Assembly (NCBI GenBank): GCA_012516175.1
Contig: JAAYWZ010000089.1
Location: 1-35,881, forward strand
Origin: Bacilli bacterium
GTDB lineage: Bacteria > Bacillota_I > Bacilli_A > Haloplasmatales > Haloplasmataceae
Reading direction: 5' to 3'
Length of the DNA: 35,881 bases
Position numbers and translations under genes: made by a program. A model generated the notes under the pieces. The model ran no database searches, was not told the DNA's origin, and was given only the letters and a program-made list of their open reading frames with translations. This document shows positions 20,866 through 22,097 of the stretch, piece after piece; position 1 is the first letter of the stretch, and every line of letters starts with the position of its first letter.

Positions 20866-21024
20866 TTATAATTGCTTAAGTTGATGAGTGATAATAGTAG
20901 CCGCAAAATAGAAGAGTAATATATAAATTACAATGATGAACATTAGCCACGGAAGTTTAAGTCGAATCTTGCTTAATCTTAAATTTTTTTCGCATTTTTT
21001 GAATTTTGATTTTTTTACTGACAT
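20866..21024 (-). CDS. Small single-pass membrane protein in the divIC position
   Basis: A 52-codon frame starts at ATG 21024 inside the end of yabQ (68-nt overlap) and stops at 20866. It begins MSVKKSKFKKCEKNLRLSKI, strongly basic, then has one membrane helix (LMFIIVIYILLFYFAATII, residues 27-45), and ends QLKQL. In B. subtilis the gene between yabQ and spoIIE is divIC, a protein with a basic cytoplasmic N terminus, one membrane segment and an outer coiled coil. Position and shape match, but the coiled coil is missing. It may be a cut-down divIC or a chance frame. The ribosome-binding site (GTGGG) is weak. Confidence 0.42.
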   Translation of the reverse strand: MSVKKSKFKKCEKNLRLSKIRLKLPWLMFIIVIYILLFYFAATIITHQLKQL

Positions 21025-21457
21025 ATTTCCCACAACCTATTAATTTCTTGATGATATAACTAAATATCTGTTTAAGAAATAAATAAGTATCTACAAATGG
21101 TTTAATAAAGATGTATCTTAAGATTTTTAAGAGCCGATTAATTAAATAATAAACTAGTTTCCGAAATGGATATAAACTTTTTTCATAATATTGATTCGCA
21201 AAATGATAATATAAGAGAAAACTAATAATCATAATACCGTAACAATAAAACGGAATGATGCCATCACTAATTTTGTATATTACAGTAAAAATGATACATC
21301 CCTGAATTACGAAAAAACAAAGATCTAGGACAAACTTAACTGTCTTTTTTAGGTGAATTAAGATAAAGTAATAGACTAAATCATAGGAAGCCCCTAAATA
21401 GATTCCGGATAAAATTGAATACAGAAGTAATAAAAACTGGGTTTTTAAATCAATCAT
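20957..21457 (-). CDS. yabQ: Spore cortex biosynthesis protein YabQ
   Basis: YabQ is a membrane protein needed for spore cortex formation, made in the mother cell in B. subtilis. The 166-aa product has about three to four hydrophobic segments (near 7-30, 40-62 and 68-88). The family-like opening QFLLLLYSILSGIYLGASYDLVYYF is followed by a very basic C-terminal tail (KKLIGCGKYVSKKIKIQKM). Its ATG overlaps the yabP stop by 4 nt, so the two are translationally coupled, as in Bacillus. Its end overlaps a small divIC-like frame. Confidence 0.85.
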   Translation of the reverse strand: MIDLKTQFLLLLYSILSGIYLGASYDLVYYFILIHLKKTVKFVLDLCFFVIQGCIIFTVIYKISDGIIPFYCYGIMIISFLLYYHFANQYYEKSLYPFRKLVYYLINRLLKILRYIFIKPFVDTYLFLKQIFSYIIKKLIGCGKYVSKKIKIQKMRKKFKIKQDST

Positions 21458-21771
21458 TTGAATAACTTGCTAAAGAATCCTTTAGAGGCTTTCTCATTAT
21501 CCTCATGGTCATAATACTCGACTTTAGTCACATATCCCGTAATTAACATTTCACCTTTTTCTACACTGAAATTGATCATTTCTAATTCCTGACCAGAAAG
21601 TGTCATATACCCTAAAATGGTTTCTAGGATAAACTCTTCACTATTTAGACTTTCAATTTTAGTAATACCAGTTAATTCGATTGATTTCCGGTCGCGAATG
21701 AACATGTGATGACTCTTAAAATTAGTATTTGTTTCTCTAGTTGTTTTATTATAGAAATCACTTTGATTCAT
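21454..21771 (-). CDS. yabP: Sporulation protein YabP (YabP/YqfC family)
   Basis: This 105-aa protein matches the YabP/YqfC family, with the conserved central part MFIRDRKSIELTGITKIESL and the LSGQELEMINFSVEKGEM segment. Homologues are sigma-E-dependent and needed for a normal cortex. The AAAGGAGG ribosome-binding site is strong (8-nt spacing) but lies in the arm of a long inverted repeat. Local order rqcP-yabP-yabQ is as in B. subtilis. Confidence 0.9.
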   Translation of the reverse strand: MNQSDFYNKTTRETNTNFKSHHMFIRDRKSIELTGITKIESLNSEEFILETILGYMTLSGQELEMINFSVEKGEMLITGYVTKVEYYDHEDNEKASKGFFSKLFK

Positions 21772-21776
21772 AGAAA

Positions 21777-21844
21777 AAACCTCCTTTATTAACTATCAGT
21801 AAATTATATTAATTAACTCTGATAGTTATGATTAAAGGAGGTTT
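21777..21844 (-). promoter_or_regulatory. Long inverted repeat covering the yabP ribosome-binding site
   Basis: AAACCTCCTTTA at 21777-21788 pairs perfectly with TAAAGGAGGTTT at 21833-21844 (12 bp). AACTATCAG at 21791-21799 pairs with CTGATAGTT at 21819-21827 (9 bp), leaving a 19-nt loop. On the minus-strand mRNA the left arm begins in the rqcP stop codon and the right arm holds the yabP Shine-Dalgarno. A T tract follows the stem, so it could also terminate. Confidence 0.72.
21803..21832 (-). promoter_or_regulatory. Candidate sigma-E-like promoter for yabP-yabQ inside the repeat
   Basis: Minus-strand ATCATAAC (21832-21825) and AATATAAT (21810-21803) are 14 bp apart. They match the sigma-E consensus GTCATATT-N14-CATACAAT at 5/8 and 6/8. 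TATAAT is also a perfect sigma-A -10, but with a poor -35 (TCATAA). Initiation near 21796 would drop the left arm of the hairpin. Confidence 0.42.
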
Positions 21845-22097
21845 ATAACCGTTCTTCACTGACGATTTCGTACATGTTTTCCGCATCAGCTTTTTTAGAT
21901 GACTCACTGATTTGTGTCACTCTGATTGTGACTTTTTTATTACCATAAGTTATAGTAACTAAATCACCAACTTTTACTTCACTACTAGGTTTGGCAGTTT
22001 TATTATTTATCTCAATACGTTCATGTTCTGCTACTTCTTTGGCAACTGTTCGTCTTTTGATTAAACGCGATACTTTTAAATACTTATCTACTCGCAT
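21843..22097 (-). CDS. rqcP: RqcP (YabO), S4-domain RNA-binding protein of ribosome quality control
   Basis: RqcP stabilises peptidyl-tRNA on stalled 50S subunits so that RqcH can add C-terminal Ala tails. The 84-aa product is essentially one S4 domain: MRVDKYLKVSRLIKRRTVAKE, then the INNKTAKPSSEVKVGD turn and a DLVTITYG strand. Alternative S4 proteins (HslR) look alike, but the position before yabP-yabQ fits YabO/RqcP. It follows the GNAT gene by 9 nt. Confidence 0.9.
   Translation of the reverse strand: MRVDKYLKVSRLIKRRTVAKEVAEHERIEINNKTAKPSSEVKVGDLVTITYGNKKVTIRVTQISESSKKADAENMYEIVSEERL

Follow-up and report, generated by a model that had tools for sequence, protein, structure and literature searches.

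Long transcripts that hide the ribosome-binding site of a gene, with a second promoter giving a translatable short transcript, have been described before. In phage T4, the long early RNAs hide the ribosome-binding site of gene e (lysozyme), and I-TevI is treated likewise. Lysozyme synthesis from the long RNAs is ~100-fold lower. The stretch of DNA that encodes the 5′ strand of this structure also holds the late promoter, so the late RNA lacks that strand and is translated (PMC3014915). In Bacillus subtilis, sigG (spoIIIG) lies behind spoIIGA-sigE, and a hairpin of at least 20 pairs was proposed to block translation of the read-through RNA (PMC5942855). The mechanism class is thus already known from T4 gene e and has been proposed for B. 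subtilis sigG.

The window analysed here is the whole stretch of 35,881 nt. On its minus strand, the gene order is DUF554 gene, GNAT gene, rqcP, yabP, yabQ and spoIIE. The upstream housekeeping gene rqcP (21843–22097) encodes an S4-domain protein (RqcP/YabO; Pfam S4, 5.3e-10). It was named from this domain and from its position ahead of yabP, and its best NCBIfam match (Hsp15-like) was under the cut-off. Its stop codon TAA (21845–21843) ends 71 nt before the ATG (21771–21769) of yabP on the same strand. The yabP gene (21454–21771) encodes the sporulation protein YabP (Pfam YabP, 3.3e-13; NCBIfam TIGR02892 above cut-off). It overlaps by 4 nt with the spore cortex protein gene yabQ (20957–21457; Pfam Spore_YabQ, TIGR02893), which belongs to the same transcription unit. 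In B. subtilis, yabPQ are within the larger operon yabMNOPQ-divIC-yabR and are sigma-E-regulated (PMC1925097).

An earlier note on this DNA had placed a hairpin at 21777–21844, and it was found there, on the minus strand. The outer block pairs AAACCTCCTTTA (21844–21833) with TAAAGGAGGTTT (21788–21777) over 12 bp, and the inner block pairs TAACTATCAG (21828–21819) with CTGATAGTTA (21799–21790) over 10 bp; both are perfect complements. An asymmetric internal loop of 4/1 nt parts the two blocks. The note had described one 21-bp stem of 12 + 9 bp. Its 12-bp block stands, but the inner block has 10 bp, and there are 22 pairs in two blocks. The 19-nt loop of the note was located at 21818–21800. Also as described there, the left arm, an anti-Shine-Dalgarno sequence, begins inside the rqcP stop codon, whose final two bases it includes, and the yabP Shine-Dalgarno (SD) sequence AAAGGAGG (21787–21780) is part of the right arm. 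T6CT directly follows the outer stem, whose 3′ arm includes GGAGG, giving the stem and U tract of an intrinsic terminator. The T6 tract (21774–21779) is the spacer between SD and ATG and a terminator-like tail at once.

The hairpin at the rqcP-yabP boundary was confirmed as real and far beyond chance. Its minimum free energy (MFE) was −31 kcal/mol (z −5.3), and none of 200 dinucleotide shuffles was equally stable. When only the 60 nt upstream of the −35 were shuffled, none of 300 randomised versions matched the real sequence in hiding the SD. The part from promoter to ATG was kept fixed because it could be constrained for other reasons. The pattern CCTCCTTT-N25-55-AAAGGAGG occurred a single time in the 2.26-Mb genome. 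A looser anti-SD...SD pattern gave, besides yabP, only an ordinary terminator by a PadR-like gene and a tRNA-like stretch in this genome. Among its 16 GGAGG-N-TTTT sites before an ATG, yabP had the lowest SD accessibility (0.001). The next lowest values (0.010 and 0.018) belonged to an ATG without a real ORF and to a gene whose SD pairs with a partner far inside the upstream coding sequence. A genome-wide style of SD hairpins was rejected, as only yabP of these 16 sites has a strong local SD hairpin. In the comparison with Rfam, nothing came near the gathering score of any family for the hairpin interval.

Some other leader hairpins of this genome were recorded. An SSB-like gene (G000:C175:6002-6014), whose upstream gene is divergent, has its SD in the hairpin GAAAATCTCC...GGAGGTTTTT (unpaired 0.15; 20 of 200 shuffles as low). 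Two copies of the short ORF start MTEKEKTRLDWEKRIDDF (G000:C15:53-68 and C57:28026-28041) share the same leader hairpin over GGAGG and are probably a repeated or mobile element.

A promoter-like sequence, TCATAAC-14-AATATAAT, spans 21831–21803. It was assigned by consensus matching alone: the putative −35 TCATAAC (21825–21831), the −10 AATATAAT (21803–21810) and their spacing of ~14 nt agree with sigma-E. The −35 overlaps the internal loop and the inner left arm. In Haloplasmataceae, the −10 starts with A, where C is usual. Both SigE and SigG are encoded in the genome. A scan found no sigma-70-type hexamer pair at this site. A vegetative promoter at the loop TATAAT was rejected, as no acceptable TTGACA-like element was present at 16–18 nt. 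The start is predicted ~7 nt after the −10, near 21796, and RNA from there would be without both left arms. Of the earlier proposal of a promoter in the loop with RNA starting there, the first part holds: the −10 is in the loop. The predicted start falls in the inner right arm.

In folding predictions, the accessibility of the yabP SD depended on the 5′ end of the RNA. The probability of the SD being unpaired was 0.001–0.003 in RNA whose 5′ end is 21844 or further upstream, 0.26 for a 5′ end at 21838 and 0.68–0.82 once the RNA begins at 21832 or further downstream. For the predicted sporulation 5′ end at 21796, it was 0.80. Two claims of the earlier note were borne out by these predictions: that a read-through mRNA hides the yabP ribosome-binding site (SD unpaired 0.003, and the related genomes agree), and that an RNA started inside the hairpin lacks the left arm and has a free site (~0.7–0.8 for 5′ ends from 21832 downstream).

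From what is established in general, a stem with T6 behind it should work as an intrinsic terminator, and 30S binding should fail at an SD buried in a 12-bp helix. We think it probable that one hairpin is both the terminator of rqcP and a translation lock on yabP, and that the sigma-E transcript bypasses it. RNA polymerase reading through rqcP would produce an RNA in which AAACCUCCUUUA is paired to the yabP ribosome-binding site. The hairpin and its U6 would halt much of this read-through transcription, and RNA that escapes would be closed to ribosomes at yabP. During sporulation, the promoter with its −10 in the loop would be used by sigma-E RNA polymerase of the mother cell. This RNA would begin at ~21796, without the left arms, and carry an open ribosome-binding site near its 5′ end, with a leader of ~25 nt. 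We infer the termination, the translation block, the use of sigma-E and a gain from the absence of YabP and YabQ in growth. As this layout is found again in many relatives with spore genes, the boundary looks selected to hold a spore gene silent in growth.

The arrangement resembles T4 gene e in that a long RNA would hide the ribosome-binding site and a promoter inside the structure would give an RNA without its 5′ strand. It differs in its setting, which is endospore development here and the timing of phage lysis there. The available part of the T4 source does not describe a terminator U tract fused to the SD, which is present at yabP (PMC3014915). As at B. subtilis sigG, a sporulation gene lies behind another operon, and the hairpin is impossible in RNA from the gene's own promoter. 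In contrast to sigG, whose upstream operon also serves sporulation, a housekeeping gene precedes yabP and the gene's own promoter is sigma-E-like. The hairpin at yabP is terminator-like, whereas the available part of the sigG source describes no terminator role (PMC5942855). Finally, stem and T tract at the end of rqcP are those of an intrinsic (Rho-independent) terminator. Unlike in such a terminator, the yabP SD is the 3′ arm, the T tract is the SD-ATG spacer and the yabP −10 is in the loop. At the sigE-sigG boundary of the same genome (G000:C207:6678-6692), a terminator-like hairpin AAAAGCC...GGAGGCTTTT overlaps the sigG SD. Its sequestration is weak (0.25; 42–43 of 200 shuffles as low).

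Eight Haloplasmataceae genomes (G000–G007) were compared, including a Haloplasma contractile MAG, Inordinaticella fortuita and uncultured Haloplasmataceae. The promoter, including its −35, was retained in seven of the eight; G006 deviates. Five genomes (G000, G001, G003, G005 and G006) have rqcP as the immediate upstream neighbour of yabP; in G004, the two are parted by a small same-strand ORF. The SD was hidden in all six of these genomes with a same-strand gene just upstream (unpaired 0.001–0.064). Of 300 shuffles each, as low a value was reached by none in G000, G003 and G005, by 1 in G001, by 6 in G004 and by 8 in G006. In G003 and G005, the pairing of the SD was kept with changed sequence, including an A-U to U-A change right after GGAGG. 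In G006, the SD is paired through the unrelated pair ATATTCCCTC/GGGGGAATAT. The promoter was kept and the anti-SD arm was absent in G002 and G007, where SD accessibility was ordinary against shuffles. G002 has a divergent gene upstream (SD unpaired 0.35; 30 of 300 shuffles as low). In G007, a gap of 495 bp separates yabP from the end of the nearest same-strand gene that was recognised (0.62; 278 of 300). These two genomes are one genus, and the absence of the lock there may be one event. The earlier note had named loss of pairing without compensation in relatives as grounds for giving it up. Pairing was kept wherever a same-strand gene lay just upstream, which favours the note.

Two details of the Haloplasmataceae loci stand apart. 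In two of them, a short ORF lies between rqcP and yabP (L036 6508-6909 and L039 7028-7450); the L039 ORF, probably a truncated copy, has a match to part of SPFH/Band 7, and the L036 ORF has no Pfam match. In G006, a DivIC gene (Pfam DivIC; L038 5313-5654) lies between yabQ and spoIIE, a place where divIC is absent from the window and from the other Haloplasmataceae loci reaching spoIIE. The yabP hairpin of G006 is the only one in Haloplasmataceae without a T tract.

For the wider comparison, YabP loci of the same phylum were gathered with PF07873, their flanks were fetched and rqcP was located by a profile built from the family. Loci with rqcP ≤150 nt upstream were counted as rqcP-adjacent (43 loci, Haloplasmataceae included). 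The comparison set comprised 55 loci without rqcP within 400 nt upstream, some of them owing to a short flank. The SD was hidden (unpaired <0.05) in 21 of 43 rqcP-adjacent loci versus 2 of 55 loci without rqcP (Fisher 1.1e-7, a value overstated by kinship). The two exceptions include G004, whose upstream neighbour is on the same strand. Between SD and ATG, 24 of 43 versus 3 of 55 loci carried a T run of ≥5 (Fisher 2.5e-8, likewise overstated by kinship), and all three of the latter are Haloplasmataceae. The T run accompanied the SD hairpin in 20 of 21 loci.

An SD hairpin was assigned to 28 of the 43 rqcP-adjacent loci and a separate intrinsic terminator to 12; 3 have neither. Classes came from a scan, followed by correction by eye where loops were long or, in one case, the start had been miscalled: to the 25 SD-hairpin loci of the scan were added L130, L092 and L038, which has no T tract, and to its 10 terminator loci L061 and L063, which have larger loops. 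SD hairpins occurred in five families (f1, f7, f18, f19 and f30) and, counting G004, in 14 genera. They nearly always carried the T tract. The anti-SD arm lay upstream of the predicted start in 27 of the 28; the exception is L038, whose left arm was cut off by the folding window. The −10 lay between the arms in 26 of the 28. Outside Haloplasmataceae, the hairpin is shorter, and its loop contains the CATA of the −10, which all 16 aligned sequences share. There, the anti-SD is often in the spacer between −35 and −10, and the −35 lies over the rqcP stop codon, e.g. GAATAAG-14-CATATAAT in L136. The three loci with neither SD hairpin nor recognisable terminator (L106, L109 and L080) all belong to genus g88, in which yabP might be read during growth.

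Co-variation across the predicted start was assessed by a swap test. Hairpins from outside Haloplasmataceae were cut at the −10, left halves were exchanged within families and SD accessibility was used as the statistic. Swapped halves hid the SD as well as own halves did in 0 of 20,000 permutations. By family, this number was 54 (f18), 211 (f19) and 790 (f30) of 20,000. The controls gave 19,113 of 20,000 for loci with a separate terminator and 4,228 of 20,000 for loci without adjacent rqcP. Only SD accessibility was used because a test based on free energy gave a low value for the non-adjacent control too (102 of 20,000). The swap test shows that, outside Haloplasmataceae, what lies before the predicted sigma-E start evolves together with what lies after it. 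As only an RNA spanning both sides needs their pairing, the co-variation means that pairing was selected in the read-through RNA. Within Haloplasmataceae alone, swapping gave 4,918 of 20,000; the test has no power there (n=4), because all left arms are generally anti-SD, and the family by itself is too small for proof of co-variation. Counting of pairs on MAFFT alignments of the interval was dropped, since the distance of the arm to the −35 or −10 varies and the left arms were out of register. Pair types taken from each sequence's own MFE structure are canonical by construction and are no proof of co-variation.

The main rival to a dual barrier is that the hairpin is simply the intrinsic terminator of rqcP, that the yabP SD serves as its G-rich 3′ arm because the intergenic space is short, and that the hiding has no role. 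The T tract directly after the stem and the co-occurrence of T runs with SD hairpins are consistent with this. So are the 12 relatives with a separate, ordinary terminator at the same boundary, and a standard terminator elsewhere in the genome looks alike (AAACCTCCTATC...GATAGGAGGTTTTTT). However, the stem exceeds the length needed for termination, and in G006 the SD stays paired without any T tract. Moreover, the predicted SD accessibility is ~0 however complete termination is, and an effect on the translation of escaping RNA would be hard to avoid. We consider this explanation unlikely, though it is the strongest of those weighed against the dual barrier.

The converse is that the hairpin only locks translation and the T tract is a plain spacer causing little termination. 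G006 carries such a lock, and the Haloplasmataceae hairpin (68 nt) is longer and more interrupted than a typical terminator, so that its shape in the window is not the classical one. Nevertheless, T runs of ≥5 are strongly tied to the SD hairpin and rare without rqcP upstream, which makes this very improbable. A DNA site, either bound by a regulator or forming a cruciform, is less probable still. Operators may take the form of perfect inverted repeats flanking a promoter, and B. subtilis yabPQ are among the cortex genes repressed by SpoIIID (PMC517825). Yet the paired sequence differs among relatives while pairing is kept, and this pairing always includes the SD and depends on a same-strand upstream gene. 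Chance complementarity in an AT-rich interval can practically be dismissed: short two-copy inverted repeats are common and promoter and SD constrain part of the sequence, but no shuffle matched the hairpin (0/300 and 0/200), which is unique in the genome and recurs in five families.

A single hairpin that terminates rqcP transcripts and locks yabP thus remains the preferred reading. A broader one sees a compact insulator that recurs at the rqcP-yabP boundary: a hairpin of ~35–70 nt would be terminator, lock on the ribosome-binding site and housing of the sigma-E −10. This insulator would have been kept or rebuilt in at least five families and lost where no same-strand gene is near, and its T tract would have been lost where the division gene divIC downstream must be transcribed in growth. 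We judge the chances of this broader reading to be about even. The lock of G006, kept with its T tract gone, is what would be expected if growth RNA must reach divIC, a hint from one genome against the terminator-only reading.

In a literature search, which was weak on subscription papers, we found no description of such a lock at yabP, of one fused to a terminator or of one recurring at a single gene boundary. The yabP gene as the site, the terminator fusion and the recurrence appear to be new. The natural contrasts found (lock, separate terminator and divergent neighbour) make the hypothesis falsifiable. If true, it answers how a spore-cortex gene can sit unexpressed behind a ribosome-rescue gene used in growth. 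It suggests that the insulation of spore genes from read-through can be encoded in <75 bp, with one sequence that acts as the terminator, houses the promoter and provides the ribosome-binding site. In an annotation, such sites would pass for an ordinary operon junction, and locks at other borders between growth and development may be overlooked.
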